Origin: a virus
Length of the DNA stretch: 34,086 bases
Reading direction: 5' to 3' (one strand)
Virus record (IMG/VR): IMGVR_UViG_3300025411_000752
Location: 1-34,086 of that record
In this document: in pieces, positions 2 through 34,085 of the stretch
How the letters are laid out: each line of letters opens with the position of its first letter
How positions within the stretch are numbered: position 1 is the stretch's first letter
Made by a program: the position numbers and the translations under genes
The notes under the pieces: model-generated
What the model was told of the DNA's origin: nothing
The model's database searches: none
Seen by the model: the letters and a program-made list of their open reading frames with translations, nothing else

Positions 2-600
2 AGTTATATCTCAAATACATTTGACAATACAAACAATACTCCGTCAACTGATACTACCGATTGGAGTGTACTAACACAAAATTATTTGTTAATGGGTGAC
101 TGGGCATATAATGTTGCTTATCAAGTAGGAGATGTTGTTCGTAAAGGCGGAGAAGTATTTGTAGCAATACAAGATAATTCAGCTCAAGACCCTACCAGTT
201 TTAGTTATACTACTAACTATAACTCAACAGGTAGTAGCGGAACCACGCTAGTAGTTACTTCATCATTAGGAATTGTATTAGGAATGACAGTGGTTGGTAA
301 CGGTTTTGCTAGCGGACAATATGTTACTAAAATTATTAATAGTACAACTGTATTATTAAGTTCTCCGCCCGATACAGCTTTAGTTAACGCACAAAATTTA
401 ACATTTTCAGGTGTAAGTCCTTACTGGAGTGAACTATCTCCAGGTGTTCGCTGGAGAAGTTTTTGGTCAGCTGGTACACAATATACTATCGGTGACCTTG
501 CCTTGTATAAAAATTATACATATCGTTGTATTACAACACATGTCGGTAGCGTATTAAATCGACCAGATGTAGATACAAATAGTAGTTTCTGGGTAGTATA
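2..600 (+). repeat. CBM-like Trp modules of first adhesin
   Basis: Two full modules and the tail of a third are visible. Each reads roughly W(x5-8)Y..GD.V...G..Y.(A/C), then ends in (Y/F/D)W. The spacing resembles small carbohydrate-binding (CBM5/12-like) modules. The linker of the first full module carries an extra beta insert (about 225-415) with a 'LGMTVVGNG..SGQYVT.I' pattern that is common in phage fibres. Sugar binding is inferred, not shown. Confidence 0.55.
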
Positions 601-19191: not shown

Positions 19192-20225
19192 TGGCATCAT
19201 TACAAAGTACAGCCGTAACAGGATCACTTACCGCAGGCGGATATGGTGTTTGGTATCATGGAAACGATGGCACTGGAACGGGTCTTAACGCAAACGATAT
19301 TTGGGGATATGACCTAAGATACTTAGACGCAAATCGTCGATTAACTTACGTAGATTTAACAAGTGGTAGTACTGGTACATTTTATCCTATGACATTTGCT
19401 TCGGCAGGTGTTGCTCCTGCTAACAATACAAATTCCAATCAATGGGGTTCTGGTGTTAGCGCACTACATATTCGTCGTACAAACGTTCACCAAGAAGGTG
19501 GAGGTTACGGTAGTTTATTTGGACGCTTGCGTTATCGTTCTTCACAGTGGGGACATCATCAGTCTTTCTGGGAACTAACGGAAAACTGGGGCAATGGAAG
19601 CTATTACCCTTTTATAGCGGGAGCAGCACTACAAGGCGAAACAAGTTATGCTTGTATTTTCCTTAGAGGAGGTTTAAGTTATTGGTATAGATTTGATAGT
19701 CCAGACCAATGGGAAAATTCTTCAGTGGCAACAACAAAGCCATTTCCTAACTACAATAATACAACACTAACTGTAAGTTCAGTGACTACATCTAGTATTC
19801 CAAGCAATGCTAGATACTATGCACAAGGTGTTAGTGTCAAAAGCGGATACAATTTTGGGGATTCAAACTTTAGATGGAACGTAGTATATGCAACAGCAAC
19901 TAATGCTAGCTCTGATGCAAGAATAAAAGAAAATATTGGAGTAGTATTAGGAACAGAATTTTTAAGTTTATTGAAACCTGTAAGTTATGTTCGAATAGGA
20001 GATGCTGATCAACGCAGAGCTCATGGGTTTGTAGCACAGGAAGTCAAAGAAGCTATGGATCAATTGGGTATTCCGCTGTTTGGCGGATATGATGATGCTA
20101 GTCCAGATAAGTTAGCATTGCGTTACAGTGAATTTATATCAACATTAATTAAAACTCTACAAGAAAAACGCGAAAGAGTTGTAGCTCTTACAGCTAAAAT
20201 TACAGCATTAGAGGGTAAGGCATAA
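19191..20225 (+). CDS. S74 tail fibre paralogue 2
   Basis: It shares the anchor (MASLQST, GLNANDIWGYD), receptor domain (LHIRRTNVHQ, FWELTENWG, YYPFIAG, LRGGLSYWYRF) and S74 chaperone with its neighbours. Catalytic Ser241-Asp242 and Lys246 (SSDARIKE) are present, followed by HGFVAQEVKEAMDQLGI. The insertion after residue 70 (NNTNSNQWGS) and the loops around 110-125 differ from paralogue 1, as expected for receptor-contacting loops. Its ATG overlaps the upstream stop in TAATG, with GGAGG (19176-19180) as ribosome site, so the fibres are translated in sequence. Confidence 0.85.
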   Translation: MASLQSTAVTGSLTAGGYGVWYHGNDGTGTGLNANDIWGYDLRYLDANRRLTYVDLTSGSTGTFYPMTFASAGVAPANNTNSNQWGSGVSALHIRRTNVHQEGGGYGSLFGRLRYRSSQWGHHQSFWELTENWGNGSYYPFIAGAALQGETSYACIFLRGGLSYWYRFDSPDQWENSSVATTKPFPNYNNTTLTVSSVTTSSIPSNARYYAQGVSVKSGYNFGDSNFRWNVVYATATNASSDARIKENIGVVLGTEFLSLLKPVSYVRIGDADQRRAHGFVAQEVKEAMDQLGIPLFGGYDDASPDKLALRYSEFISTLIKTLQEKRERVVALTAKITALEGKA

Positions 20226-21325
20226 TGGCATCGTTAAAATCAACTAATATAGCAACCAGTGCAACTGTTGGCGGCGGGGCAGTTTGGCACACAGGTAATC
20301 AAGGCAGTACAAGCGGAGCAGATACAGGTTTAAATGCTGGACAAATTTGGGGTTGGAATGACTACGAGTTTGACATTCCATCTAGGACCACTGCACTTAC
20401 ATTAGGTGGCAACACTAGTAACTATTATCCAATTATATTTGCACAAAATGCATGGGATGCTGGAAGTTATGGAACGCCTCTTATTATGGATATCCGTCGT
20501 ACAGATGCTGACCAAACAGCTGACGGTGCAGGCACCGGTACATTCTTCATGAAGTTGAAGTACAGAGCAACTAACTGGGGATTCCATCAGAATCACTGGG
20601 AAATTTTAGAAAACTATGCCAGCCCAACCGCAACACAATATCCATTTGTTGCTAACGTAGCACAACCTGGAACCAGTGCCTGGCTGGGCGTATGGATGAA
20701 AGGCGGTTTGCACTATCACTTTGCGTTTGGTACGCAAGCAGCTGTATTTGATAGTAACTGCACTACGTCACGAAACAAAGGTGTAGGTAACGGATCTGGC
20801 AGTTATTTAAACGGTGATAGTTTCTGTTGGGAAAACCCAACACTAACTGGTGGTGGTGTAGGTTATCAAACTACATTAAGTGTTCCTAGTTATGCTACCT
20901 ACTTCCAACAAGATTTGTGTTCAAAAGGTTATGACTTAGGACAAAGTAGTTTCCGTGCAAGTAACGTATATGTAACTAGTACTAGCATAAGTTCTGACGA
21001 AAGAGTTAAAGACAATTTCGGTGTTACATTTGGAACAGAATTTATAGAATTATTAAAACCAGTTAGCTATACATTTAAAGGCGACTGGGACGATGGTAAA
21101 TTACACTATGGTCTACTAGCACAAGATGTTAAAGATGCTATGGATCAGTTAGGAATTACAGAAGACGAATTTGCTGGATACGATGGAAGAAATCCTGATA
21201 TGTTAAGCCTGTTGTATGATGAATTCATTCCTATTATTGTAAAAACCATCCAAGAAGAAGAAAATATTATGACAAATTTAAAAACAAGAATATCAGCATT
21301 GGAGGCAAAACATGGCGGTGTATAA
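20225..21325 (+). CDS. S74 tail fibre paralogue 3
   Basis: Third and longest of the tandem fibres. The anchor, receptor domain (MDIRRTDADQ, HWEILENYA, QYPFVANV, MKGGLHYHFAF) and S74 domain are recognisable. Ser257-Asp258 and Lys262 (SSDERVKD) keep the self-cleavage dyad. The receptor domain is the most divergent of the three: it replaces Tyr/Trp positions with His/Phe and adds a Gly/Asn/Ser loop around 183-200. The start overlaps the previous stop in TAATG. The chaperone helix again reads AQDVKDAMDQLGITEDEF, so the C-termini diverge far less than the receptor domains. Confidence 0.85.
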   Translation: MASLKSTNIATSATVGGGAVWHTGNQGSTSGADTGLNAGQIWGWNDYEFDIPSRTTALTLGGNTSNYYPIIFAQNAWDAGSYGTPLIMDIRRTDADQTADGAGTGTFFMKLKYRATNWGFHQNHWEILENYASPTATQYPFVANVAQPGTSAWLGVWMKGGLHYHFAFGTQAAVFDSNCTTSRNKGVGNGSGSYLNGDSFCWENPTLTGGGVGYQTTLSVPSYATYFQQDLCSKGYDLGQSSFRASNVYVTSTSISSDERVKDNFGVTFGTEFIELLKPVSYTFKGDWDDGKLHYGLLAQDVKDAMDQLGITEDEFAGYDGRNPDMLSLLYDEFIPIIVKTIQEEENIMTNLKTRISALEAKHGGV

Positions 21326-21648: not shown

Positions 21649-22335
21649 ATGTCTGTGAAAATTGGTTGGTTTGTAAACAGTGAACCAGCATGGAACGAGT
21701 TGGTATATCAACAACCCGAACCGTTAGCATTGAATCAAGATCATTCTGCTCAATATGTTCGTTGTCCTGCTACAGCACATTATTGTAAAAATACGTTTAT
21801 AATTAGATCAGGTTACGATCTACATCTACGTTTTGATAAAAATACCAAAACGATCAAATATATCGACGGCAGTCTCGATCCTAGTTATGTAAAAGAATTA
21901 CTAGTTCAATTTCACCCCAACGAGTGGCGCAACCCGCACACTCCTATTTTTCAACTACATTTAGATAATGGATTTGTTGCAGACGAACCTGTCTGGATGG
22001 AAGTTTTTCCAGCATTTTATCAAGCTCCTAAGATTCCGGGACATATAATTCCAGGAACATTTGATATCTATAGTTGGCAACGTATGCTTAGTTATAGTTT
22101 TGAATGGATGAATCCTGACGAAGACTATCACATTAGTCGAGGTGATCCACTGTATAGTGTTAGATTCAGATCAAGGGATCCGGGAGATAGTTTTAAAATC
22201 GAAACAATTAAAATGGACGACCGATTAAAAAACGATATTGGAAAATGTCAAGGTGTTAAGTTTGCTTTAAAAAATTATAGCTGGCGCCTAATGGCCTTAA
22301 ATAGAACACTACGCCCAAGGAGATACATTAAATGA
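21649..22335 (+). CDS. Protein of unknown function heading the + strand enzyme block
   Basis: A soluble 228-residue protein, rich in Trp, Tyr, His and Pro, with no signal peptide or membrane helix. Visible features are YVRCPATAHYCKNTFIIRS near residue 37, a PHTPIFQLHL strand near 96, and IIPGTFDIYSWQRMLSYSFEW near 137, followed by ISRGDPLYSVRF. The pattern of C-P, then Q.H, then a FDI..W.R and a RG.PL..VRF strand resembles DUF6065-type proteins, which I recall only loosely. The next gene starts within its stop codon (ATGA overlap), tying it to the oxygenase and halogenase run. It may be a partner or substrate-recognition factor for the enzymes, but no catalytic motif is evident. Confidence 0.65.
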   Translation: MSVKIGWFVNSEPAWNELVYQQPEPLALNQDHSAQYVRCPATAHYCKNTFIIRSGYDLHLRFDKNTKTIKYIDGSLDPSYVKELLVQFHPNEWRNPHTPIFQLHLDNGFVADEPVWMEVFPAFYQAPKIPGHIIPGTFDIYSWQRMLSYSFEWMNPDEDYHISRGDPLYSVRFRSRDPGDSFKIETIKMDDRLKNDIGKCQGVKFALKNYSWRLMALNRTLRPRRYIK

Positions 22336-23108
22336 ATATGGAATTAATCGACATTTATCCTGTTAAAATTGCTACTTATGATCTAAAGCAATTATTAACA
22401 GTTGATGAATTTATTTCACTACAAGACGCAATTGAAAATACAAGTGCAGATACACACGAACGTTTGAAAAAACCACAAAGCCCGCCAGCAACAACTGACA
22501 GTACTTTGTTTTTAAATGAAAATCATTCTGCTCTTATGAAAGTTAAAAAAGATTTTCATGAAAGTTGTATTGCACTTCATGAAGCAAAGTTTCCAAATTT
22601 AGCTGGAAAGTTTCATGTTTACGATAGTATTTGTAAAGGTATTGTTATTAACTCAATGACAACAATGCAAGATACTATGAGCAACTATCCATGGCACTAT
22701 ACTGGAATTGCTGTTATTAGAGCTCCTGAAACTTTACCCGAAGGACAAGGGGATATTGTGTTTGTTGATCCACTACCTGTTAGTGAAAAAGGCGACCAAC
22801 ATGGTGTAATTGCAAAACGCGGCAATATGACTATATTTCCATCATGGTTGAAATATCGTTTTAGACCAATTGCGTATCAAGAAACTGAATACGATACTGT
22901 CATGATACTAGTTATGAATAGTTTTGTTGTTCATGAAAGATTAGAAGACTATGCAGCTAAAGAACGTGCGGCCTATAAAGGCGAACCAACAGAAGCTCCA
23001 CTATTCCAATTAGGGCCAACAGGTGATCGCGGAGAAACTGAAATTGATATTAAACCTCCTACAGATAGTTCACTTCCATCTGAGGGGATAGATATTGGCC
23101 GTTTCTGA
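22332..23108 (+). CDS. Degenerate 2OG-Fe(II) oxygenase-fold protein
   Basis: The fold phrases of the 2OG-FeII_Oxy_5 / TIGR02466-type family are present: IYPVKIATYDL at the start, WHYTGIAVIRAPE at the place of the H.H..SG.YY motif, GQGDIVFVDPLP, and RGNMTIFPSWLKYRF at the place of FPSWL.H. The catalytic residues are not. The distal His is Tyr175, the first His of the metal pair is missing (only His122 in YPWHYT), and the Arg expected to bind 2-oxoglutarate in the last strand is absent (YDTVMILVMN). A tail of about 55 residues, Pro/Glu-rich and probably disordered, follows. It is likely a non-catalytic paralogue, perhaps a scaffold or regulator of the active enzymes. Translation is coupled on both sides (ATGA, then TGATG). 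Confidence 0.65.
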   Translation: MNMELIDIYPVKIATYDLKQLLTVDEFISLQDAIENTSADTHERLKKPQSPPATTDSTLFLNENHSALMKVKKDFHESCIALHEAKFPNLAGKFHVYDSICKGIVINSMTTMQDTMSNYPWHYTGIAVIRAPETLPEGQGDIVFVDPLPVSEKGDQHGVIAKRGNMTIFPSWLKYRFRPIAYQETEYDTVMILVMNSFVVHERLEDYAAKERAAYKGEPTEAPLFQLGPTGDRGETEIDIKPPTDSSLPSEGIDIGRF

Positions 23109-23668
23109 TGAAACACATTGTAGTTGACAACATCGTACCTTTACCTTTGCAAGATCAATACGAATATGCTTGCCAAGGGTTTAGCTGGAATTATCTTATA
23201 TCTACATATAAAGGTACAAATCCAGGTTCTAAGGAAACTGAAGAAATATACGATGTTGGCCAACTAGTTTACCCTATTCATTTTAGAGATTATACGACTA
23301 GCTTTTACTCTCAATTAGATCCGTTAATATCGGCTATATCAAAGATTAAACCTTTATATAAAGATTTGCTAAAAATAAAAGCCAATCTGTTGTGGAGAAC
23401 TAGAGATTCCAATAACCGTTGGAATACACCACATACTGATATAGATAGTGTTGCCAATAAGGATGACATTTTTTGGTCATGTGTGTATTATGTAAATGAC
23501 TCGGACGGTGATACTTGTTTATTTTACGAAAACGAAGTAGTACGAGTATCACCTAAAAAAGGCCGAGCTGTATTATTTCCTTCTAGTTTGTTACATGCAG
23601 GATCTAATCCTACTGTAAGCCAGCAACGTGTGGTCTTTAATATAGTATGGAAAACAACACATGATTAA
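23108..23668 (+). CDS. 2OG-Fe(II) oxygenase (HxD type)
   Basis: A 186-residue double-stranded beta-helix enzyme expected to couple 2-oxoglutarate decarboxylation to hydroxylation or another oxidation of an unknown substrate. The iron triad is His109-x-Asp111 (TPHTDID) and His163 (FPSSLLHAGSN), and Arg174 (QQRVVFNIVW) is placed to bind 2-oxoglutarate. GDTCLFYENE and KKGRAVLFPS are the usual core strands. Its nearest relative in the window appears to be the enzyme at 29313-29867, which ends in the same (L/F)N.VWK. The first base of its ATG is the last base of the upstream stop, and its end overlaps the following halogenase by eight bases, so the two may be co-translated partners. Confidence 0.85.
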   Translation: MKHIVVDNIVPLPLQDQYEYACQGFSWNYLISTYKGTNPGSKETEEIYDVGQLVYPIHFRDYTTSFYSQLDPLISAISKIKPLYKDLLKIKANLLWRTRDSNNRWNTPHTDIDSVANKDDIFWSCVYYVNDSDGDTCLFYENEVVRVSPKKGRAVLFPSSLLHAGSNPTVSQQRVVFNIVWKTTHD

Positions 23669-25169
23669 AAAAATTGTTATTGTCGGAGGCGGAACAGCAG
23701 GCTGGATTGTAGCTAACTGTATGCAATCATTTACTTTAGACGATATGGAAATTAGTCTATTAGAAAGTGATAAATTACCTACAGTTGGAGTCGGTGAAGG
23801 AACTAGTAGCCACTTTTGGGCATTTTTAAATCGTTGGTGTCCTTGGTTAAATGAAGCAGAATTTATTCGAGAAACAAATGCTACATTTAAAATAGGCAGC
23901 AGATTCGAAGACTGGACACATCCAGGTAGTGTATATACAACTCCTAACGATAATATCGGACATCCTATGGAGTCTAATAACTATTGGCCTCCAGATTTTG
24001 ATGCTATGCGAGCTTATGCTGTCTTGCACGGGTTATCAACAAACCCTAGTATTCAAAGTAAATTGATGGACACATTAAAAAGTCCTTATTTTTCAGGACA
24101 AAGCACTGGACATAGTTACCACTTTGACGCTGCCTTAGCACTAAAATATTTTCATAGTAAAGCAGAAGCTGCAAATATTAAAAGAATTATCGGAACAGTA
24201 GTAGATGCAGATGTAGAAGAATCTGGTCTAGTCAAATGTTTGAATTTAGATGATGGCAGAAAAGTCTATGCTGATATGTTTATCGACTGTACAGGCTTTT
24301 TAAGATTATTTCCTAAGATATTTAATATTAAATTTATTAGTTGGAAGGAACATATCCTCGTAGATCGCGCCATTAACTTTCCTATCCCAATTAAAGAAAC
24401 TGAAAAAATACCTACACATACACTAAGCAAAGCCATGCCAAACGGTTGGCTATGGCGAGTACCTACTTTTACCAGATATGGATCTGGTTACATTTATAGT
24501 AGTGATCACATTACAACTGATCAAGCATTTGATACACTACAAAAAGACTTTGGTGCAGATAGATATCTACAAGAAATTAAGTTTGATACAGGATATTTAG
24601 AAAAAGGATGGGTCAATAATGTTTTATTCAGCGGATTGTGTGCTGGATTTGTTGAACCTATGGAAGCAACTAGCTTGCACAGTAGTATATGTAACCTATT
24701 AGTGTTCATGAAAGACTATTTTAGACCCGACATGGATTTACTTGATACAAATTTACATAAACGCTACAACGAAAATTACTGGAAACCCTATTGGGAAAGT
24801 GTACGAGATTGGATATTACTACACTACATGGGCGGAAGAGAAGATACTGAATTCTGGCGCACAGTGAAGAATATGAAATTGCCTGATAGTCTTGAAAGTA
24901 AAATGCAACTATGGAAATTTAGACTACCAAGAATTATTGAAACTAGCCACATGGATCAAGTGTGGCAACATACACTAGTATACGGTGTGTTAGACGGTTT
25001 AAAATTGTTAGACAAAAATCTAGCAAAAAAAGAATTAGCCTACTACGATTTAGAACATATAGGTAAAGAGATTTACGAAAAATATAATAATTTAGCAAAT
25101 AAATTATATCTAGGAGCAAAGGATCACAGGAGACATTTAACTGAGATTAGAAACGGGGCCAGTACATGA
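23661..25169 (+). CDS. Flavin-dependent (tryptophan-type) halogenase 1
   Basis: A 502-residue member of the Trp_halogenase family (PF04820). These enzymes use FADH2, O2 and halide to make HOX, which a Lys relays to an aromatic substrate. Visible: FAD-binding GGGTAGW (9-15), VGVGEGTS (42-49), the catalytic Lys at Lys77 (NATFKIGSRFEDW), the halogenase signature GWLWRVP (262-268, consensus WxWxIP) and FVEPMEATS (330-338) with Glu335 at the place of PrnA Glu346; Ala336 replaces the following Ser. The length is close to typical (about 500-540). No flavin reductase is encoded nearby, so host reduced flavin must be used. It overlaps the next halogenase by four bases. The substrate is unknown: free tryptophan, another small aromatic, or a peptide. 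Confidence 0.9.
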   Translation: MIKKIVIVGGGTAGWIVANCMQSFTLDDMEISLLESDKLPTVGVGEGTSSHFWAFLNRWCPWLNEAEFIRETNATFKIGSRFEDWTHPGSVYTTPNDNIGHPMESNNYWPPDFDAMRAYAVLHGLSTNPSIQSKLMDTLKSPYFSGQSTGHSYHFDAALALKYFHSKAEAANIKRIIGTVVDADVEESGLVKCLNLDDGRKVYADMFIDCTGFLRLFPKIFNIKFISWKEHILVDRAINFPIPIKETEKIPTHTLSKAMPNGWLWRVPTFTRYGSGYIYSSDHITTDQAFDTLQKDFGADRYLQEIKFDTGYLEKGWVNNVLFSGLCAGFVEPMEATSLHSSICNLLVFMKDYFRPDMDLLDTNLHKRYNENYWKPYWESVRDWILLHYMGGREDTEFWRTVKNMKLPDSLESKMQLWKFRLPRIIETSHMDQVWQHTLVYGVLDGLKLLDKNLAKKELAYYDLEHIGKEIYEKYNNLANKLYLGAKDHRRHLTEIRNGAST

Positions 25170-26611
25170 AGAAATTTTTTATAGCAGGTGGTGGAACAGC
25201 AGGGTGGGTAGTAGCTAGTATGTTAGCTGCACTTTATAAAGGTTGTGATATTACTTTGGTAGAAAGTCAAGATATTGGCACTATTGGTGTTGGTGAAAGT
25301 ACAACTCCTGCTATATTAGATTTTTTAAATCTCAGCGGAATTAATCTAATTGATTTTATAAATTATACCGACAGCACTATTAAAGTTGGAATTAATTTTG
25401 AAAATTGGACAGGCACTGATAACAAATATTTTCACGGTAATAGAGATTATCTACACAGCTTTGATCTTACTAAACAAAATGATTTCTGGGGAGTAAGTTA
25501 CTTACACGATTTTTTAGAAGACGAACACAAGTACAGTAATTATGTAAGAGATAATCTAGTTCCTTTTAATCGTAAAGGATATCAAGTTGGCGCCCATGCT
25601 CTTCATATCAATGCCAACAAATTAGTAGAATATTTGCGTAAATTCTTACAAGGAAAAGTAACTGTAAAAGAAGGGTTGATTACAGAAGTTAAAAAAGACG
25701 AACAAGGAATCTCTAGTGTAAAATTAGAAAGCGGTGAGGTATTTTCTGCAGATGTTTATTTTGATTGTACTGGATTCAAGCGTGTAATACATCAACATGT
25801 CGATTCAAAATGGCATAGTCTTAAAGATTTGCTACCAGTAAATAGGGCTATCCCAAGTCCATTTGATTGGAACGATCCTATGAATACTACACACTCTAGT
25901 GCATTGTCATCTGGATGGGTATGGCAAGTTCCGTTAAGCAATCGTGTAGGTTCAGGATACGTATACAGTGAAGAGTTTAGCAAGGACCCAGAAGCAGAAT
26001 TTGTAGAATATATTAAACAAAAATATAATCGAGTTGTAGAACCTACACGTACAATTAAATTCGAAGCAGGGTATGTAAAGAACCCTTGGTCAAAAAATGT
26101 GGTATGTGTCGGTTTAAGTAGCGGGTTTGTAGAACCATTAGAAAGCACAAGCATACACATGATGTTTCATCAGATTATGTGTTTTTCTCAACTATATGAT
26201 GGCTTAATTAGTGCTAACATCAATAATGTTTACAATAGTTATATGATAGACATGTACGATGATACAGCTAGCTTTGTTAAAATGCACTATCTTGGCGGTA
26301 GAAATGATACTGAATTTTGGAAGTATATGCAGAATTCAAAAAATACTCCTAGGCTAGACAACTTATTATCTATATGGAATAATCATTTCCCAACAGCAGA
26401 TCATATTGGACAAAATAAAGACCGTGTAGTCGGTTATAGATTGTTTGCATTACCTGCCTGGATACAAGTATTAGTTGGGATGAAAATTATTGACAAGTCT
26501 TTGATTAAAAAATATATCGATTTTAATCAAATACCTAAGAGTGAAGTAGTAGAAGAACAGTTAGTTACACAACGAGAGTTCTTAAAGGCTATACAAAATC
26601 GGGCCCAATAA
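25166..26611 (+). CDS. Flavin-dependent (tryptophan-type) halogenase 2
   Basis: A 481-residue PF04820 protein with every key element: GGGTAGW (8-14), IGVGESTTP (40-48), Lys73 (DSTIKVGINFENW), GWVWQVP (250-256) and FVEPLESTS (321-329) with Glu326-Ser327 as in PrnA. It is clearly diverged from halogenase 1 in the substrate-side region (about 85-145, 205-245), so the two are unlikely to share a substrate. The start ATG lies in the stop of halogenase 1 (ATGA overlap). The 3' end overlaps the convergent hydroxylase gene by 23 bases, with no terminator between the two opposing runs. Confidence 0.9.
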   Translation: MKKFFIAGGGTAGWVVASMLAALYKGCDITLVESQDIGTIGVGESTTPAILDFLNLSGINLIDFINYTDSTIKVGINFENWTGTDNKYFHGNRDYLHSFDLTKQNDFWGVSYLHDFLEDEHKYSNYVRDNLVPFNRKGYQVGAHALHINANKLVEYLRKFLQGKVTVKEGLITEVKKDEQGISSVKLESGEVFSADVYFDCTGFKRVIHQHVDSKWHSLKDLLPVNRAIPSPFDWNDPMNTTHSSALSSGWVWQVPLSNRVGSGYVYSEEFSKDPEAEFVEYIKQKYNRVVEPTRTIKFEAGYVKNPWSKNVVCVGLSSGFVEPLESTSIHMMFHQIMCFSQLYDGLISANINNVYNSYMIDMYDDTASFVKMHYLGGRNDTEFWKYMQNSKNTPRLDNLLSIWNNHFPTADHIGQNKDRVVGYRLFALPAWIQVLVGMKIIDKSLIKKYIDFNQIPKSEVVEEQLVTQREFLKAIQNRAQ

Positions 26612-27200
26612 CCCAGCCAACTAAAGACTTTCTTACACCTTTAGTAACAGGAGTTACGCTATGAGGTAAGAACGAAGGGAAGAACACAATCTCATTTTGT
26701 TTTAATCTAACAATATTACCAGGATTGGAATCGTGAAATACTAAATTTCCACCTTCAAATTCACTAGGATCATTTAGTTGGATACTGAAAGATAACTTTC
26801 TGCATCTACCGTTTTCTCCTTTAAGAGTTGCATCGGTATGCATGTCGTAAAATCCTTGATCTTCCGAACGATATATAGAATACTGTAGTGTTTGAATATG
26901 TGTTAGTGCAAACTTATAATAGCCAGCATTAACTTCATTTACAGCATCGGATAATCTTTTATAGATGTTGTCAAATGTAGGAGTTTCTTCTAAGAATACG
27001 ATATCTGTTCTGCGAAGTCGACTATTTCTAGATCCACCGTTTTCTTTTATCTTAGCAGAAATTATTTGCTCAGGATGTTGAGATATATAATTTTCTATAA
27101 AATTGTGTTGCTCTTGAGTAAAAATATCTCTTGATACAACACACCATGCATCTTTAGTTTTAGATGGATGTTCTAAAGCCCACATATCACTTATTGCCAA
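26589..27200 (-). CDS. PKHD / prolyl-4-hydroxylase-like 2OG-Fe(II) oxygenase
   Basis: 203 residues. Core motifs are His121-x-Asp123 (FYDMHTDAT), RKLSFSIQLNDP..FEGGNLVF, and FFPSFLPHSVTPVTKGVRKSL with His180 and Arg190, the pattern of PKHD-type hydroxylases and P4H-domain enzymes. It probably hydroxylates a protein side chain or a small molecule; which one cannot be told. The frame opens at a TTG with AGGA shortly upstream. An ATG five codons in (27185) lies one base after the stop of the upstream methyltransferase and is an alternative start. It is the last gene of the - strand run and converges on halogenase 2. Confidence 0.85.
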   Translation of the reverse strand: MAISDMWALEHPSKTKDAWCVVSRDIFTQEQHNFIENYISQHPEQIISAKIKENGGSRNSRLRRTDIVFLEETPTFDNIYKRLSDAVNEVNAGYYKFALTHIQTLQYSIYRSEDQGFYDMHTDATLKGENGRCRKLSFSIQLNDPSEFEGGNLVFHDSNPGNIVRLKQNEIVFFPSFLPHSVTPVTKGVRKSLVGWVIGPDFV

Positions 27201-28107
27201 AAGATCCTGGTAGATTCTTTGGAATGTTTACACTAGTTCTAAAACTCATTAAGTTTTCGTCGATTATAAAACCAAGTTCTAGCTCAGTTTTTTCTTCCAT
27301 AATTGTATATTGGTTAAATCTTAAAAAACTATTACCCCAGTGACGTTCAATCGAAGGACGATACAAATTTAAACGAGAGCCGTTAGATACTATATAAGGC
27401 TTGACCCATATACTATCGATTCTAGTAGATTTTTTGAATACGTTACGTTGTTCTAATATACCTTCGGGGTAATTGTAAAAATCCCAAGGACCAAAATTAA
27501 GCCAATCATTATGGTCGTCTGGTATTACATCCTCGACAATAGTTTGCCCAGTTTGCATTGCTTCTTCAAATGTAGAACCTAAAGAATGTATATAGTTTAT
27601 AGAATCAACATTGTCGCTATCATAAAATTTAAATTCAAATCCAAAACTATCAGGTACTAGTTTACCATCAGGCTTGAGCCATTTTTTAACATCGTTTAAT
27701 GTATGCAGACACATTTCGTCTAATAAAAATGGTCCAAAAATTTCATGAATAATTACATCTACCTGTTCAGGCAACTCTAGTGCCCAACTGGCAGATTCTA
27801 TAATTTCAAGATTATCTAATTTTTCTTCGTCTTTTAATTTTTGCAATACTTGTACGGCTACTGGATTTGCTTCGACAGCATACACTTTACTAGCGCCTGC
27901 TCGGATAGCATACAAAGATAGTAAACCTAATCCTGCACCGATATCTAACACAACTTTTCCCTTGCAAGAATGTTTGATAGACTTTTCGTAGAATAAATTT
28001 CTAGTCTTATCTGTCATTAATCCTCGATACGAGCCAACACCTGTGTAATAGGCTTGTATTTGCCCCATTCTAAAATTTTGAAAATCTTCTAGTTGTTCTT
28101 TATTCAT
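27187..28107 (-). CDS. PRMT-like SAM-dependent arginine methyltransferase
   Basis: 306 residues with the layout of a class I protein arginine methyltransferase. An N-terminal helix AYYTGVGSYRGLMTDKTR (19-36) matches the PRMT YF..Y......ML.D..R motif. Motif I is VLDIGAGLGLLS (53-64), with the ribose-binding acid Glu79 in VYAVEAN. A double-Glu loop, HEIFGPFLLDE (121-131), places Glu122 and Glu131 nine residues apart as in PRMTs, where they hold the arginine guanidinium. IERHWGNSFLRF near 253-264 sits where PRMTs have the THW loop. KPDGKLVP is also PRMT-like. The eukaryotic dimerisation arm is not obvious. It likely methylates Arg in a phage or host protein. It overlaps both neighbours, all of them oxygenases. 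Confidence 0.75.
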   Translation of the reverse strand: MNKEQLEDFQNFRMGQIQAYYTGVGSYRGLMTDKTRNLFYEKSIKHSCKGKVVLDIGAGLGLLSLYAIRAGASKVYAVEANPVAVQVLQKLKDEEKLDNLEIIESASWALELPEQVDVIIHEIFGPFLLDEMCLHTLNDVKKWLKPDGKLVPDSFGFEFKFYDSDNVDSINYIHSLGSTFEEAMQTGQTIVEDVIPDDHNDWLNFGPWDFYNYPEGILEQRNVFKKSTRIDSIWVKPYIVSNGSRLNLYRPSIERHWGNSFLRFNQYTIMEEKTELELGFIIDENLMSFRTSVNIPKNLPGSFGNK

Positions 28108-28715
28108 TTTAAGTCCACATTAAAAGCGATACATCTTCGTTCGCCGTCACCCTTGAAAGGATAAACTGTATGCATTATATATGCCGGAAATATGTACATA
28201 TCCCCTACTCTTGGACAAATTGCTCTTGGGCCAAGATTTTGTAAACTAGGAACATGAAAATTGCCAAATATAAAATGCAAACAACCATCCAAGCCGTTAT
28301 TACCATTTTTTTGTATAGTGTTGTATGAGTCTTGAATTTGTTTTGGAACTTTAAGATATAAAATACCACTGAGTAATGCATCGTGTGTATGTACTGGATT
28401 ATAGTCACCGGCATATTGACTAACAATCCAAGATTTTCTAACTTCTAAATGCCTAGCTTCTATGTTTCTAAAAAATGGATCATAACTAGATTTTAAATAA
28501 TCCACAACATATGGTAGTACATCAAACGATTCTGAAAACTCAAATTCTCGTTGTTCGCCTTCTTGTATTAGCCCAGCTAAAATAGGGCTCATGTCTGCAC
28601 CTGTTTTAAGGTATTCGTCAGACTCTTTTAATAAACTATCTATTTCAGTTTGTTTTAATTTGGCCTTTAAAATATCTAAGGACCAAAGTTTACTAATCTC
28701 AGCAAATCTAGCCAT
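28104..28715 (-). CDS. 2OG-Fe(II) oxygenase (HxH type, TIGR02466-like)
   Basis: 203 residues. It carries His109-x-His111-Asp112 (NPVHTHDALLSGILYLKVP), a core strand CLHFIFG, GDMYIFPAYIMHTVYPF with the distal His182, and ERRCIAFNV with Arg193 for 2-oxoglutarate. The HxH..SG.LY pattern is that of the 2OG-FeII_Oxy_5 group. The helical N-terminal 100 residues are unusually long for the other HxH enzymes here and may bind substrate. AAGGAA stands before the ATG. It overlaps the methyltransferase in ATGA and the upstream oxygenase by eight bases. Confidence 0.82.
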   Translation of the reverse strand: MARFAEISKLWSLDILKAKLKQTEIDSLLKESDEYLKTGADMSPILAGLIQEGEQREFEFSESFDVLPYVVDYLKSSYDPFFRNIEARHLEVRKSWIVSQYAGDYNPVHTHDALLSGILYLKVPKQIQDSYNTIQKNGNNGLDGCLHFIFGNFHVPSLQNLGPRAICPRVGDMYIFPAYIMHTVYPFKGDGERRCIAFNVDLK

Positions 28716-29328
28716 TTAATAATTCCTTTTTAATTAATTGCTTTAAGGACGAACGCATAGTATTGAAACTAATTGTAATTCTTTCTTTAGTTTTGTTTCT
28801 TTCTGTATAATGTAATAACCAGCTAGGAAATAATACTAGCATTCCGGGCTGACATGGAAATTCTATTTGTCCAGCGCCGTATGTTGTTTCTTTAGCTAGT
28901 ATGTCGTTCATTTTAAAAGGGCGAAGCGGAGTTTCAAAAAACAAACTACAACTACCAGATTCTGCATATGGGTAAAATGCTCCGCTTATAACACTACCTT
29001 CATGTCTGTGAGGAGTTACTTTACCATCTTGTCCAATGATATTAAACCAACTATCAGTGACCACACAAGTCTCTAACCCAGTTTTATCAGTATAAGTATC
29101 TAGGGCAATTTGTACGTCTGTAAAAAAATCAGATAATTCAGGAACATTTTTTAAATTCTGGTCAGCACCGCCGTAACTAGATTGGCCGTTTACGACTAAT
29201 ACATGCTCACGAGTATTCATAGACCGTATTGTATTAACTAGTGTTGAATTGGTATGTTTGGTAAAATCAAAACCTATAACAATAGTTGGAAATAATTCGT
29301 AAACTTTATGATTTATTTTCTTTTCCAT
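28708..29328 (-). CDS. 2OG-Fe(II) oxygenase (HxH type, TIGR02466-like)
   Basis: 206 residues. It opens with YELFPTIVIGFDF, the usual N-terminal signature of this group. The metal region is TPHRHEGSVISGAFYP (His107, His109, Glu110), followed by LFFETPLRPF, GMLVLFPSWLLHYTER (His173) and ERITISFN (Arg183). All expected catalytic positions are present, unlike the related degenerate protein at 22332-23108, whose FPSWL segment aligns well with it. The substrate is unknown. It overlaps the preceding oxygenase by 16 bases. Confidence 0.85.
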   Translation of the reverse strand: MEKKINHKVYELFPTIVIGFDFTKHTNSTLVNTIRSMNTREHVLVVNGQSSYGGADQNLKNVPELSDFFTDVQIALDTYTDKTGLETCVVTDSWFNIIGQDGKVTPHRHEGSVISGAFYPYAESGSCSLFFETPLRPFKMNDILAKETTYGAGQIEFPCQPGMLVLFPSWLLHYTERNKTKERITISFNTMRSSLKQLIKKELLNG

Positions 29329-29867
29329 ACTGTATTCAATGTTAACCTATATTGATCGGCTTCTAATGGCGGTTGTGTACCTACATGCGGAATAATACTA
29401 TCAAACATAGCAACTCTTCCGGGAACAAAATCCGATACAAATTCAATATCAGATAAATCATTAGTTCTCCATACTGTGGGACAGTGCCAGTTTACATTCC
29501 AAGAGACATTTAAATAATAAAGAACACTAACAAAGCCTTCAGTTCTTGAATCGCTATGATAGCGAAGTCGATCAATTGGTGTTGCTAAATTCATCCATGA
29601 CCTGCTAAACTCGTAGTCTTTTAGCTGATCAGTAACGACTTTCATACCGGGTAAACTAAACAATCCAAATGATTTTAAACTTTCTTCGGTCCATAGAGAT
29701 TTAATTAAAAAACTGGCTTTTTGATCTGTTAGTAGTGTATCAAAACCGGTCGAAATCATAAACGGAATTTGTCTTATTTGCTCAAACAAACTGCAACGTT
29801 CGTGATAACTTAATAAATTATCATAAAGTTTAATGCTATGTCCAGATTGTGTAGTATGTTCTTTCAT
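29313..29867 (-). CDS. 2OG-Fe(II) oxygenase (HxD type)
   Basis: 184 residues with His104-x-Asp106 (RYHSDSRTEG), VSVLYYLN, WHCPTVWRTND, PGRVAMFDSIIPHVGT (His161) and DQYRLTLNTVW (Arg174). It is a complete 2OG-Fe(II) triad plus the co-substrate Arg. The FDS..PH phrase differs from the FPS.L.H of its neighbours and suggests a phytanoyl-hydroxylase or P4H-like subgroup. It ends in NTVWK like the + strand oxygenase at 23108-23668, so these two may be paralogues split between the two runs. It overlaps the upstream gene by four bases. No Shine-Dalgarno sequence is seen, so translation is probably coupled. Confidence 0.82.
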   Translation of the reverse strand: MKEHTTQSGHSIKLYDNLLSYHERCSLFEQIRQIPFMISTGFDTLLTDQKASFLIKSLWTEESLKSFGLFSLPGMKVVTDQLKDYEFSRSWMNLATPIDRLRYHSDSRTEGFVSVLYYLNVSWNVNWHCPTVWRTNDLSDIEFVSDFVPGRVAMFDSIIPHVGTQPPLEADQYRLTLNTVWKRK

Positions 29868-30439
29868 ATAAAATTAAAAGCAATTGATATTCTAGCATCA
29901 TTTTTATCAGTTGTCAAGTTCTGTCCTACACTATGACGAACCCAACTAGGAAATATTACCAATTTTGATTCTTCTGGCTCTAGCATCAATGCCTGAGCGG
30001 TATATTCATTTTCTTGTTCAAAAAATTGGAGGAAAAATTCACTATCGTCTTGTCTTTCTAAAATAAGATCACCACAATTTACAGGACATTTTACATAATA
30101 GGTACAACTAAAAAATGACAAAGTATGATTGTGAGATATATTATAATTGTTTCGATTGTTTACATTGAACCAATAATTAGATAACTTAGGAATCCTGCTA
30201 TTTCCAAATTTTTCATATATAACTTTTAATCTGCCTTGTATTTCAGCAATTAGTTTTTCGGTAACAGGTCCAACAGGTTTAGATAACGGGCGACTTTGCC
30301 ACCCTCCATTATTGCTTACTTGTATAGGTGTATTTTTTTCAGAATAAATTTTTCTGCATTCTTCAATCAACTGAGCATTGTCTATATTTGTAATATAGTC
30401 TTCGTATATTTCTGTTGGGAATAAAAATGCACTTTTCAT
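29864..30439 (-). CDS. 2OG-Fe(II) oxygenase (HxH type, TIGR02466-like)
   Basis: 191 residues. FLFPTEIYEDYI marks the N-terminus. WFNVNNRNNYNISHNHTLSF carries His103-x-His105, followed by CTYYVKCP, GDLILER, SKLVIFPSWVRHSVGQN (His169) and ARISIAFNFI (Arg183), which ends the protein. It is a standard member of the HxH group and the shortest of those in the window. Its start overlaps the stop of halogenase 3 (ATGA), placing it immediately downstream of that enzyme in the same transcript. A functional pairing of halogenase and oxygenase, as also on the + strand, is plausible but unproven. Confidence 0.85.
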   Translation of the reverse strand: MKSAFLFPTEIYEDYITNIDNAQLIEECRKIYSEKNTPIQVSNNGGWQSRPLSKPVGPVTEKLIAEIQGRLKVIYEKFGNSRIPKLSNYWFNVNNRNNYNISHNHTLSFFSCTYYVKCPVNCGDLILERQDDSEFFLQFFEQENEYTAQALMLEPEESKLVIFPSWVRHSVGQNLTTDKNDARISIAFNFI

Positions 30440-31881
30440 CGTAATATACTATCAATAAATTTTCTATGATCTACAGCCCTAGTGAGATCTTGTGCCCTAC
30501 GCTGTCTAATAGAGTAGGATTCTTGCCTAGCACGTTCTAATAAATTTCTTTGTGTTAATATTTTCTTTATTTTATCTCTATTGCATTTTTTAAGACCTAC
30601 TGCAACTCTTGTAAAATTTCCAAAACTAAACATTACACCTAAACTATCATAAAATGTTAAAAAATCCATTTGAGCTTTTTCATCTAGATCTGCAACTATG
30701 CTTGGAGTATTATTGGTCATATAACGCCAAAACTCGCTATCTGTTCTCTTTGTAGTATAACAGAATCTCAAATACAAGTATACATTTTCATAAAATTCTT
30801 GCATAATTTTATTGTAATTAATTCTATCTAAACTACAATAACCTAAACTGTTTAAATGTACAAACTGCCTAACTTGCTCAACTGTGTGATGTATGTTTGT
30901 TGCTTCTAATGGTTCTGTGAATCCGCTTGCTAGTCCAACAGCAATACAATTTCCAACCCATTGATCCTTCCAGTATCCGCTTTTAAAAGATAGTACACGG
31001 CTAGTGTTGGTTAAATCTTTTTGATAAGTTTGTTTAGTCCACTGAGAAAATTTACTAAATGCTTCATCGTCGGATGTAAATTCGCTAGAATACAAATAAC
31101 CTGCTCCCCAACGATTGCTTAACGGTACTTGTAGTATCCACCCATCTGCGCTTGCTTCTGACGTTGTATAAGGAGGTTGTTTTGTAAATTCATATTCAAC
31201 TGGATTAGGAATACAGCGGTCGATTGGCAACCAATCACTTTTGTCAACCCACTCTGTATTCATGTGTTTCATCAGTACAGTTTGAAATCCGCTAGCATCT
31301 ATATAAAAATCAGCTGATAATTTACGCCCGTCATTTAGTACTATATGATCTATATTTTCATTATTCTTTACTACTGAGTCTACAACACCGTCTGTAATAG
31401 TTAATTCATTTCGAAATTTATTTTCAATATAACGACTAAACAATACAGCATCTATATGTAGTGCTTGTCCTGCATTTGGATCTCCAGGAATTAATCCATT
31501 GTCCATATATGCGGCATTATACGAAGTATCTGAATCATACTGGTTGTGTGCAATGTCATAAGCAGCTACTAAATTGTAGTAACTGTCTTGATACTGGCTA
31601 AAATTATGATAATAATGTTTACCATCATTTAACCAATTTTTAAATTTAAGTCCTAATTTAACAGTGGCATTAACATTTTTAATTAGTTCTTCTCTTGTAA
31701 TTCCTACAAGATCTAAATATTCATAAATTACAGGAGTAAGACTTTCCCCAACACCAATTCCAGGTTTGCTGTGGTCATATACTAGTGTAACATCTACATT
31801 AGATTTCCAATATTTTTTAATATAAGTGGCGGCCATAATACCTGCGGTACCCCCACCTACAACTAAAATTTTATAAGTCAT
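30436..31881 (-). CDS. Flavin-dependent halogenase 3 (altered WxWxIP motif)
   Basis: 481 residues, PF04820 family. GGGTAGI (9-15) binds FAD, IGVGESLTP (42-50) follows, Lys75 (NATVKLGLKFKNW) is the expected catalytic Lys, and FTEPLEATN (321-329) carries Glu326. The signature normally reading WxWxIP is GWILQVP (247-253), so the second Trp is Leu250. Ala follows Glu326 instead of Ser, as in halogenase 1. WxWxIP is regarded as a marker separating halogenases from related monooxygenases, so the chemistry of this copy is less certain. It lies between two 2OG oxygenases with four-base overlaps on each side. Confidence 0.85.
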   Translation of the reverse strand: MTYKILVVGGGTAGIMAATYIKKYWKSNVDVTLVYDHSKPGIGVGESLTPVIYEYLDLVGITREELIKNVNATVKLGLKFKNWLNDGKHYYHNFSQYQDSYYNLVAAYDIAHNQYDSDTSYNAAYMDNGLIPGDPNAGQALHIDAVLFSRYIENKFRNELTITDGVVDSVVKNNENIDHIVLNDGRKLSADFYIDASGFQTVLMKHMNTEWVDKSDWLPIDRCIPNPVEYEFTKQPPYTTSEASADGWILQVPLSNRWGAGYLYSSEFTSDDEAFSKFSQWTKQTYQKDLTNTSRVLSFKSGYWKDQWVGNCIAVGLASGFTEPLEATNIHHTVEQVRQFVHLNSLGYCSLDRINYNKIMQEFYENVYLYLRFCYTTKRTDSEFWRYMTNNTPSIVADLDEKAQMDFLTFYDSLGVMFSFGNFTRVAVGLKKCNRDKIKKILTQRNLLERARQESYSIRQRRAQDLTRAVDHRKFIDSILR

Positions 31882-32474
31882 TTAGTTAAAGCAAACCACG
31901 AAGACAATATATACTTGGTGTCTTTAAGTGGAGGATTGCCCCTGTGTGTATGCGTAAACGAACTAGGAAATATAACAACAGTCCCTTGACGAGGAGGAAT
32001 TCTCACACTTTGATGAATGAATTCTGTTTCGCCACCGTCATTGATGTCGTTCAAATAGATAATAATACTTAAAAGTCGATTGGCTTCTTGTATACTGTTT
32101 TGTTCATGATGCCACATATGATAACCTTGACCAGGTTTTGTACGCTGTATCTTAAATGGCAATATTTGTAAATTTTTAGCAAGATGACTAACACCATTTA
32201 CCGTGTCTGCATACATGGCAATACATTTAGTTACCGCTTGTATTGCAGGACCAGCTAACTGTCCATTAGTCAACATTCGATTAGTGTCTAGTTCTTCTCC
32301 TAGATAGTATTGTTGATCGTCCTTGGCACTGATAGGAACTTGGTCTACTTCTTGTCTGTTAATAGTTAAATCGTAACCATTTAAATATTCAAAGTAAGAA
32401 CAAACTTTATTACAATACTCTTTTGATAGCTCATTAGGAAAAACTCCAATTAAATTTTCTATAGTCGATGTCAT
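31878..32474 (-). CDS. 2OG-Fe(II) oxygenase, prolyl-4-hydroxylase-like (HxE)
   Basis: 198 residues. YHMWHHEQNS supplies a His122-x-Glu124 pair. RLLSIIIYLNDINDGGETEF is the P4H-type core, and VVIFPSSFTHTHRGNPP gives the distal His175 (or His177). KYILSSWF ends the domain, with Lys187 where others have the 2OG-binding Arg. Glu in place of the usual Asp occurs in some 2OG enzymes, so activity is plausible. It belongs to the same broad group as the PKHD-like enzyme at 26589-27200. It overlaps halogenase 3 in ATGA and follows the next oxygenase with the same four-base overlap. Confidence 0.82.
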   Translation of the reverse strand: MTSTIENLIGVFPNELSKEYCNKVCSYFEYLNGYDLTINRQEVDQVPISAKDDQQYYLGEELDTNRMLTNGQLAGPAIQAVTKCIAMYADTVNGVSHLAKNLQILPFKIQRTKPGQGYHMWHHEQNSIQEANRLLSIIIYLNDINDGGETEFIHQSVRIPPRQGTVVIFPSSFTHTHRGNPPLKDTKYILSSWFALTK

Positions 32475-33088
32475 TCGTTATCCTCGTAATGCGAACTAAC
32501 GCTATTTTTTCCAAGATTACGAACATTAAAATTATAAGCAACACTGATTCGTTCGTCGTCAGTTAAATTATTAGGCGTAGTACCATGTATTGTACTACTT
32601 CTAAACACAATACACAACCCCTCTTCCGGATCTATGCAAGTTTGGGTACTATTATCCACAGTTGGCCCAGCATGATCCGGATCAATTGAATGCATTTGAG
32701 GGCATGGATGCATAAACATCAGTTGTCCACTACCTTTTGGTGCTCGGGGATAGTATACAGCACTGATGAAACTGTTTGAATGGCCATGTGGAGGATGAGT
32801 AGTAGCTGTGGCTGTACTAATGTTGGCCCAACTATCCGCAATATACAGCTCATTAAACTCTATATCGTATCCACATTCTTTTACAAAATCAAATACAGCA
32901 CTTTTTACAAAATAATTTACTTTTTCAAATTCTTTAAATTTATGAACACCTGTTTTAGTTTGAAAAAAGTTAGAGCTACTAGTTAATAATTTGTCTTTGA
33001 CAACTTCTTTAACATCAGCATGTATGGAAAAATCTAGATTATTATAAAACCCTACGGTAGTAGGGAACATACGAACAATTTCTTTCAT
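32471..33088 (-). CDS. 2OG-Fe(II) oxygenase (HxH type, TIGR02466-like)
   Basis: 205 residues. VRMFPTTVGFYNN is the family's N-terminal signature. THPPHGHSNSFISAVYYPRAP holds His101-x-His103, GQLMFMHPCP is the core strand, GLCIVFRSSTIHGTTPNN has the distal His168, and ERISVAYNF has Arg180. FRSS replaces the usual FPSW. A GGAG ribosome site five bases before the ATG (33094-33097) is one of the clearest in the - strand run. Its start overlaps the stop of the Nudix gene in ATGA. Confidence 0.85.
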   Translation of the reverse strand: MKEIVRMFPTTVGFYNNLDFSIHADVKEVVKDKLLTSSSNFFQTKTGVHKFKEFEKVNYFVKSAVFDFVKECGYDIEFNELYIADSWANISTATATTHPPHGHSNSFISAVYYPRAPKGSGQLMFMHPCPQMHSIDPDHAGPTVDNSTQTCIDPEEGLCIVFRSSTIHGTTPNNLTDDERISVAYNFNVRNLGKNSVSSHYEDNE

Positions 33089-33534
33089 ATCAACTCCACT
33101 AAGTCGAATACAGTTTGAAGTTTTGTACGTATTGTTTTGCTCGAAAAGCTATTACGCAGACCTTGGTGTAAGGGTTTAGGCGCACGGTCGATAGTTGCCC
33201 ATGCCCAAGCAATGTGTTCATCACTTAGTTCAGGAACAAATTCTTTTTCTATAACACAGAGATAGGTATGAAAGTTAAACACTTTATCATTTGATACAAA
33301 TGTTTCTAACGGAATTGTTTTTAAGATTTTTGGTATTGTACCAATTTCCTCAGCAATTTCTCGTTGTAAGCCCTGCCATGGAGTTTCGCCAGTGATATTA
33401 GTACCACCAACTAAACCCCAAGTTCCTTCATGCTTGCCATGTGCTTTTTGTAACAGTAAGAATCTTCGTGTAGATTTGGCGTAGAACAATGCTCCGCTAC
33501 AAACTATCGATTCTTTTACAAGACTAGACTCCAT
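33085..33534 (-). CDS. Nudix hydrolase
   Basis: 149 residues. The Nudix box G-x5-E-x7-REUxEExGU is almost exact from Gly44 to Thr66 (GGTNITGE, then REIAEEIGT), with metal-binding Glu59, Glu62 and Glu63; only the last hydrophobic position is Thr. GTWGLVGG before the box and the FVSNDKVFNFHTYLCVIE strands after it are typical. The substrate (NDP-sugar, ADP-ribose, dNTP, RNA cap or other nucleoside diphosphate) cannot be read from the sequence. It is the first enzyme gene of the - strand run, and its start lies 19 bases inside the end of the upstream structural gene. Confidence 0.88.
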   Translation of the reverse strand: MESSLVKESIVCSGALFYAKSTRRFLLLQKAHGKHEGTWGLVGGTNITGETPWQGLQREIAEEIGTIPKILKTIPLETFVSNDKVFNFHTYLCVIEKEFVPELSDEHIAWAWATIDRAPKPLHQGLRNSFSSKTIRTKLQTVFDLVELI

Positions 33535-34085
33535 TGACCTGATGTATATACACCCTCAAAACTCTTTGCCCAGGAAACTCCGTTCCACAGGTATTGTACT
33601 CCAGTGTATATATTCGTTTGCCACACTAAGGTGTCTTTGTCTTGGTTTGCGTGGAAAACTACAGTCCATGTTTCCCCTGTCCACTCGATGATGTCGTTTA
33701 CTTCTGCTACGAAATCATGTCCATAGATGTCCTGCCATGCACTAGCACCTTTGCCTGGTGCATTGTGTGTACTACCTATTTCGTCAATTATCAAGTATCG
33801 TGTGCCCACAGCAATAGGCTGATCTGTATCTTGTTTTTGAGGACGTTTTGGATTAAATGATTGTGGATTTATAATAGCATCAAATGTGCCAGGACTATTA
33901 GGTCTATAGCAATGTGATAAATCGTAACCTAATTCGTGATCTAGTAAACCCGCACTATCAATTCCTGTGTTAGATGTAAGTGTATCAGGATTCCATTGAA
34001 CATGCATGATTGTATAGTTCAACGGATCGATAGCCACAGTACCTACAATTTGACTACCATTTGCTTGTGTTAAAAATAGTCTACT
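33516..34085 (-). CDS. Probable virion structural protein, C-terminal part
   Basis: The frame is open to the window edge. Residues upstream of the first in-window GTG (34037) continue as ordinary protein (LFLTQANGSQIVGTVAID), so the real start lies outside. The visible part includes DAIINPQSFNPKRPQ, AVGTRYLIIDEIG and, at the end, paired Trp repeats (DIIEWTGETWTVVFHAN, QYLWNGVSWAKSFEGVY) closing in GQWSLVL. Such W(N/T)G..W..SFEGVY...W.L endings recur in structural proteins of T4-like cyanophages, from memory. It suggests that the - strand enzyme block was added after, or is transcribed behind, a virion gene. Confidence 0.6.
   Translation of the reverse strand, partial: SRLFLTQANGSQIVGTVAIDPLNYTIMHVQWNPDTLTSNTGIDSAGLLDHELGYDLSHCYRPNSPGTFDAIINPQSFNPKRPQKQDTDQPIAVGTRYLIIDEIGSTHNAPGKGASAWQDIYGHDFVAEVNDIIEWTGETWTVVFHANQDKDTLVWQTNIYTGVQYLWNGVSWAKSFEGVYTSGQWSLVL

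Follow-up and report, generated by a model that had tools for sequence, protein, structure and literature searches.

A recurrent island of predicted halogenase and 2-oxoglutarate oxygenase genes between the fibre and neck genes of a T4-like phage, with a possible role in tailoring virion proteins

Why should a phage carry three flavin-dependent halogenases and eight members of the 2-oxoglutarate (2OG) oxygenase family side by side among its virion genes? This question is raised by IMG/VR record IMGVR_UViG_3300025411_000752, of which a stretch of 34,086 nt (hereafter the window) was analysed. Positions 21649–33534 of the window are occupied by a block of 15 open reading frames (ORFs), neighbours overlapping by 1–23 bases, which encode these enzymes together with one oxygenase relative lacking the metal triad, an enzyme resembling protein arginine methyltransferases (PRMTs), a protein with a predicted dUTPase-like fold, and a Nudix hydrolase. 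A preliminary description of this DNA had placed an oxidative block of 15 overlapping genes here, flanked on either side by virion genes, and the ORF list, the family matches and the flanking genes (Peptidase_S74 tail fibres on the left; gp15, gp14 and gp13 on the right) bear it out. The block could be a plastic, exchangeable tailoring island made late with the virion proteins and acting most likely on fibres or adhesins; we advance this reading tentatively, giving it somewhat less than an even chance.

The three halogenases of the preliminary description are encoded at 23661–25169 and 25166–26611 on the plus strand and at 30436–31881 on the minus strand, and match PF04820 with E values of 9e-97, 3e-96 and 7e-90, respectively (302.6–325.3 bits against a curated cut-off of 21). 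All three contain the GxGxxG nucleotide motif, the catalytic Lys and the catalytic Glu (Lys73 and Glu326 in the second), while the position of the halogenase motif WxWxIP is occupied by WLWRVP and WVWQVP in two of them and by WILQVP in the third. They can be assigned to the halogenase family, and halogenating activity is predicted for them. The catalytic roles of the Lys and Glu are set out in extracts of PMC8407142. A wider set of 177 halogenases, each no shorter than 420 aa (leaving out L001–L015, L019, L041, L045, L204, identical proteins and shorter ORFs) retained the Lys without exception; Gln stood at the Glu site in 8 of the 177, and some enzymes with this replacement may not be halogenating. 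Lone halogenases of the phages S-PM2 (L033), Syn1 (L034) and Sf-CH3 (L028) have Gln at the expected position of the Glu. Recent tandem duplication of the three window genes was considered and is ruled out by their mutual identity of 31–33% and by the phylogenetic tree, in which 30436 is sister to the S-SRM01 halogenase (support 100/100), 25166 joins both (93/89), and 23661 branches elsewhere, at an open fork.

Eight proteins of the block belong to the 2OG oxygenase family, and all but one of them exceed a Pfam 2OG cut-off. Three match PF13640: 23108–23668 on the plus strand (1e-8; HTD109...H163, R174), and 26589–27200 (3e-16; HTD121...H180, R190; TTG start) and 31878–32474 (2e-14; HHE122...H175 or H177) on the minus strand. 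Four others, all on the minus strand, match PF13759: 28104–28715 (7e-18; HTH...H), 28708–29328 (3e-17; HRH...H), 29864–30439 (8e-21; HNH...H; PDB entry 3bvc at 3e-6) and 32471–33088 (1e-18; HGH...H). The exception, 29313–29867 (minus strand; HSD104...H161), has no Pfam match and was recognised by phrog_274 at 2e-10 and by a local PF13759-type profile, not seeded with this protein, at 3e-7 to 5e-7. The count of eight intact 2OG oxygenases given earlier thus holds as far as family membership goes, but the HxD/E...H triad is present in only four (23108, 26589, 29313 and 31878), the PF13759 proteins having HxH...H instead. The HxH form likewise occurs in the aligned stretches of the solved relatives 3bvc and 2rg4, and all eight are candidates for 2OG-dependent activity. 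Two of the genes are under purifying selection in comparison with a 91–92% identical relative (L019), with dN/dS of 0.037 for 32471 (dN 0.0186, dS 0.495) and 0.009 for 31878 (dN 0.0043, dS 0.484). The phrog_274 label 'DNA endonuclease V', which falls on 2OG-like proteins of the window (23108–23668 and 29313–29867) and of the cyanophage Syn10 (L023:18406-18924 and 19529-20113), is likely a misannotation.

A ninth relative, at 22332–23108 on the plus strand (phrog_81, E 4e-5), contains neither HxD/E...H nor HxH...H. It had been called degenerate, and the metal triad is indeed missing, but decay is doubtful: a 36% identical homologue on contig IMGVR_UViG_3300010885_014443 (locus L042) likewise has no triad, as read from the alignment. 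Mere decay being countered by this homologue, the protein looks like a conserved, non-canonical member of the oxygenase family. Its AlphaFold2 (AF2) model, with a pLDDT of 34, was unusable.

The PRMT-like protein, encoded at 27187–28107 on the minus strand, was also borne out: the PDB matches listed (60 of 71) are all arginine methyltransferases, with CARM1 the best at 7e-21, while in Pfam it scores 39.3 bits with PrmA and 38.8 bits with PRMT5. Both Glu residues of the CARM1 double-E loop are aligned in it and in a 50% identical homologue found at the same place in L042, and the position of the THW loop is taken by RHW and HHW in these two proteins. Its S-adenosylmethionine-binding core is closest to PRMTs by the PDB matches, and methylation of protein Arg is predicted. 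Known PRMT-family enzymes act on proteins.

For the first gene of the block, at 21649–22335 on the plus strand (phrog_17480), an AF2 model with a pLDDT of 73 was compared with known folds; VIA returned dUTPase 2y8c_B with Z 9.0 and 2.7 Å over 113 residues, and Foldseek gave only E 9e-4 and TM 0.33. A dUTPase-like fold is predicted. With the window copies set aside, an iterated profile found 34 related ORFs, spread over 30 loci; they include the gene directly behind the halogenase VirX1 in Syn10 (L023:13562), genes behind the halogenases of S-RIM44 and P-TIM40, and an S-CREM1 gene annotated as a triphosphate nucleotidohydrolase. Because its relatives occur in so many loci, including positions behind halogenases, this family is a signature of such islands. 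The last gene, encoding a Nudix hydrolase at 33085–33534 on the minus strand (PF00293, 5e-16), had been counted as a member of the system. The gene is present, but in 38 of the 41 loci that extend 4 kb or more beyond gp15 a Nudix gene comes after gp15, which rules out membership of the window gene in the tailoring system; the Nudix start precedes the gp15 end in 55 of the 70 loci holding both. As a regular gp15 partner, it belongs to the neck operon.

Is the place of the block peculiar to this phage? IMG/VR was scanned with 14 aligned halogenases, and the best 80 loci were kept for per-locus tallies; two of them (L041 and L045) are copies of the window phage and were left out of the remaining counts, leaving 78. 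A second scan used gp15, an anchor blind to halogenases, and gave 79 loci after L204 was left out of the best 80. Five contigs occur in both sets (L049/L223, L047/L234, L094/L240, L084/L266 and L112/L271). Halogenase and oxygenase profiles were built from window, Syn10 and S-SRM01 proteins, those for oxygenases being then refined by iteration over the same loci. Of the 80 halogenase loci, 38 hold two halogenases or more; oxygenases number at least one in 51 and at least three in 25. At the 79 gp15 loci, the side away from gp14 contains 31 halogenases, distributed over 16 loci, and 70 oxygenases in 412 kb, versus 0 halogenases and 8 oxygenases in 358 kb on the gp14 side; 80 nrdB loci, a background control from another, unmatched group (S-PM2-like phages), have 0 halogenases and 17 oxygenases in 845 kb. 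Neck or Nudix and fibre genes are both in view in 10 of the 78 halogenase loci, and of the 25 halogenases there, 23 (from 9 loci) are placed strictly between the two kinds of gene; a further 18 loci show the neck only and 14 the fibre only. These counts support recurrence of the place beyond chance.

The same counts bear on the possibility that nothing more than ordinary auxiliary metabolic genes is involved, with a hot spot that simply collects cargo and oxygenases that lower 2-oxoglutarate or repair DNA. A role of this kind has been proposed for cyanophages (extracts of PMC3037559), and other cargo does occur behind gp15 elsewhere, such as genes related to NAD in phage Phosso. It would leave unexplained why, among 41 gp15 loci with at least 4 kb, an oxygenase accompanies a halogenase in 12 of 13 but occurs in only 8 of the 28 without one (Fisher p 1.7e-4), and why up to five halogenases occupy one island (L062 and L063, each also with nine oxygenases; L077 has four and twelve, respectively), and we consider it very unlikely. 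Halogenases and 2OG oxygenases are common in aquatic phages, and the literature, in the portions available, treats them as host-metabolism, DNA-repair or antibiotic genes with no shown substrate: in cyanophages, halogenases are linked to antibiotics or cell protection, and for oxygenases the roles proposed are nitrogen metabolism, DNA repair and host reprogramming (PMC9964418, PMC9602691, PMC3037559, PMC2984593 and PMC9146016). No text tying phage halogenases and 2OG oxygenases to fibres was found in the parts of the open-access literature covered by the search.

What else is carried at this spot was assessed from 29 island loci on 27 contigs, which supplied 92 other ORFs. Twenty of them match phrog_2954/3531, labelled ferrochelatase, and ten are tail-fibre assembly chaperones (PF16778); no NRPS (nonribosomal peptide synthetase) or PKS (polyketide synthase) was present among the 25 most frequent of their 48 families. 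In the ferrochelatase-labelled family (e.g., L023:20110-20652) the match is to the first half of phrog_3531, while 2OG proteins match its second half. Halogenase-free loci were represented by 88 of 127 listed ORFs (long ones and several from contig ends or short contigs being left out by eye), which include, besides fibres, sugar, sulfotransferase, carbamoyl, radical-SAM and methyl enzymes, each in 1–5 of the 88. Since loci without halogenases carry other modifying enzymes, it appears to be a place where decorating enzymes gather, alongside other cargo.

The chief competing explanation, in print for a related cyanophage cluster as far as the accessible text shows, is that the island decorates a small molecule or a host envelope glycan (capsule or lipopolysaccharide), the halogenated and hydroxylated product blocking competitors or superinfection. 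This is how the S-SSM6a cluster of halogenase, 2OG enzymes and carbamoyltransferases was read by Iyer et al. 2021 (extracts of PMC7824862); phage S-SSM7 has a like set about 5 kb before gp13, and the halogenase-free loci include a few PfkB, cytidylyltransferase, epimerase, sulfotransferase and FkbM genes. Bacterial halogenase loci (Caulobacter, Sphingomonas and Alteromonadales) fit this explanation as well. In the best-scoring 80, scanned with 6-kb flanks and phage-trained profiles, at least two halogenases occur in 40, as in the window; an oxygenase is present in only 8, unlike the window, and in the 40 sampled for their longest neighbour this was a TonB receptor barrel in 28, not a fibre, with GH3 or GH9 enzymes at 4. 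The gene content of the window counts against it. The preliminary description had seen no NRPS, PKS or DNA methylase here, and of the 15 island proteins none reaches the cut-off of a Pfam model for any of these; nor do they include a carrier or synthase domain, carbamoyltransferase, HAD, sugar-nucleotide or glycosyltransferase gene, or an amino-acid-activating or transport gene, and the sole methyltransferase is the PRMT-like enzyme, which is itself at odds with a metabolite or glycan target. Because the sugar and carbamoyl genes of the S-SSM6a type are absent, this explanation is weakened for the window, and we rate it as rather unlikely.

Both halves of the block continue a run of virion genes. 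A single 98-aa gene of no known family separates the S74 fibres from the plus-strand half, which begins 40 bases after it, and the minus-strand half comes after the Nudix gene, which overlaps gp15, so that the block occupies the convergent junction between the fibre genes and gp14–gp15–Nudix. Because each half extends such a run, expression of the enzymes is probably late, at the same time as that of fibre and neck proteins. With the tails of two virion-gene runs, a shared place and an enzyme of a protein-methylating family, late tailoring of fibres or adhesins would be the simplest reading. Under it, the island enzymes, made alongside the fibres and neck proteins, would target fibre or adhesin proteins that the phage itself has just produced, the halogenases acting on exposed Trp or Tyr, the oxygenases hydroxylating side chains and the PRMT-like enzyme methylating Arg, and the modifications could alter receptor binding, stability or recognition. 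Late expression, a protein substrate and an effect on adsorption are what we infer. Something else at the cell surface is suggested as the alternative target at large. Still more tentative, and well short of an even chance, is the specific proposal that halogenases, hydroxylases and an arginine methyltransferase form a multi-enzyme oxidative line marking fibres or adhesins, encoded in an exchangeable fibre–neck cassette.

The same enzymes might instead modify host proteins (translation proteins, receptors or regulators), leading to cell takeover or a block of superinfection. Some bacterial 2OG enzymes are able to hydroxylate ribosomal proteins, the range of PRMT targets is wide, and several different oxygenases could mean several targets. 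However, the continuity with virion genes and the place at neck and fibres fit virion assembly better than early takeover, and modification of host proteins appears improbable. The neighbours, described earlier as rich in Trp and Tyr, are so only in part: Tyr reaches 5.6% in the giant adhesins and Trp 2.6–3.2% in three of the four S74 proteins, but the adhesins have only 1.3% Trp; gp15 has 2.7%. T4-late-like ATAAATA boxes were rejected as promoter evidence, being fewer than in shuffled sequences; on three stretches, seven of eight sit 12–121 bases before a gene start, five of them within 40, and none lies in the island. A sigma-70 scan gave no excess either (47 matches versus 60.2 in shuffles).

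Several observations weigh against late fibre tailoring. The place by neck and fibres recurs in the neighbourhoods of related phages, to which the preliminary description had pointed, but 36 of the 78 halogenase loci have no neck or fibre match in the fetched stretch (some of these stretches are short). Some halogenases are located elsewhere: those of S-PM2, Syn1 and S-MbCM6 have psbA, hli, talC or tRNA genes in their vicinity, and that of S-B64 adjoins a recombination endonuclease. At the gp15 loci, where islands fill the fetched flank, no fibre family was tied to halogenase presence. Just one other island, L042, was found to carry the PRMT-like gene, which gives the strongest hint of a protein as substrate. 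Retention of the catalytic Glu in 165 of the 177 halogenases is a biased figure, because one of the halogenase search patterns contains this residue, and the nrdB control is unmatched. Within single genomes the clustering is modest: in 18 genomes, related phages that are not independent, scanned with two Pfam profiles and excluding P-SSM5 (W19, the same species as W03), 47 oxygenases have a halogenase within 8 kb, versus 21.1 expected (p 0.0005, 2000 rotations). The carbamoyltransferases among the other island ORFs (5 of 92), as well as the sugar, sulfotransferase, carbamoyl and methyl enzymes of island-free loci, fit glycan or metabolite chemistry equally well.

If such a multi-enzyme oxidative line did finish the attachment proteins, virion surface chemistry would be an evolving trait, and VirX1 and its kin would gain natural substrates. 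Halogenated or hydroxylated fibres would give adsorption and host range a chemical layer invisible to genome annotation. The recurrent neck–fibre place, found with a blind anchor and a control and including VirX1, an enzyme of known structure and in vitro activity, makes this a sharp, testable hypothesis.

The genes around the block can be followed further on contigs of 62 kb, which are identical to the window where they overlap and prolong it in both directions. All genes left of the block that were assigned lie on the plus strand. A giant adhesin- or fibre-like protein of 2341 aa at 2–7027, open at the window edge and starting on L018, is labelled by its likeness to the next one; the second, of 3197 aa at 7063–16656, has relatives in other island loci. 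Four tail-fibre genes with terminal Peptidase_S74 chaperones (PF13884) follow at 17025–18158, 18160–19191, 19191–20225 and 20225–21325, the last also matching tail spike/fibre PHROGs. To the right, the 3' part of gp15, the tail sheath stabilizer, lies at 33516–34085 on the minus strand (phrog_11196 and phrog_227), and beyond it on L016 are gp14 and then gp13 (phrog_11591; phrog_211). In its major capsid protein the phage shares 72.7% identity with jumbo phage Phosso and 68% with the PA5oct group, and the nearest relatives of gp15 come from the same phages. Since both proteins are closest to this group, the source phage is, by these two markers, a T4-like relative of jumbo phages. At the corresponding stretch, the cultured relative Paride has a virion structural gene, a gp15 relative, Nudix, one 202-aa gene and a convergent 1008-aa ORF. 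In the stretches fetched for Paride, Phosso and Atu_ph07, the local profiles detected neither halogenases nor oxygenases. In Phosso, NAD-related genes stand behind gp15 in place of the island (L292:13481-20020).

Further halogenases were also seen elsewhere. In the Actinomycetia phage DSL-LC01 (L036), a divergent halogenase is found one gene behind a pair annotated as collagen, and S-CREM1 (L037) has a collagen-like gene near its halogenase. In Campylobacter phage CP21 (L121) a gp30-like ligase gene and gp18 flank a halogenase-like gene, away from the fibre context, and an unannotated 23-kb phage contig from human faeces (L039, MT835646) carries two halogenases.

Among known systems, arrangements like that of Syn10 occur in S-RIM44, P-RSM6, P-TIM40, S-CREM1, Sf-CH11, S-WAM1 and S-SZBM1, the first five with Pfam 2OG matches, while HTVC008M has four oxygenase-annotated genes between fibre-like genes and neck, its halogenase adjoining the terminase. 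The S-SSM6a/S-SSM7 cluster resembles the window in combining a halogenase with 2OG enzymes in a large T4-like phage; it differs in its carbamoyltransferases, sugar and HemK-like genes (as far as the available text of the source goes), none of which is present in the window, and the window in turn has three halogenases, eight oxygenases and the PRMT-like enzyme. VirX1 is an active halogenase with a solved structure (6QGM; extracts of PMC8407142); the Syn10 ORF was confirmed as VirX1 against 6QGM, and VirX1 is identical in Syn9. The Syn9/Syn10 island has, like the window, two halogenases behind tail-fibre genes (phrog_529) and then a relative of the dUTPase-fold 21649 protein, and in Syn10 8 of 12 scanned ORFs match 2OG PHROGs 81, 61 or 274, similar to the oxygenase run of the window. 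Unlike the window, no PRMT relative was found in Syn9/Syn10; the window halogenases fall outside the VirX1 clade in the tree, and the capsid protein of the window phage is closest to those of jumbo phages, in contrast to Syn9/Syn10. The nearest counterpart of the whole block is in L042, where the order of the window is repeated: an S74 fibre, homologues of 21649 and 22332, two halogenases, an oxygenase, PRMT, Nudix and gp15. With one further oxygenase and two halogenases against the eight and three of the window, L042 is, judged by gene order and homology, a diverged version of the same block.

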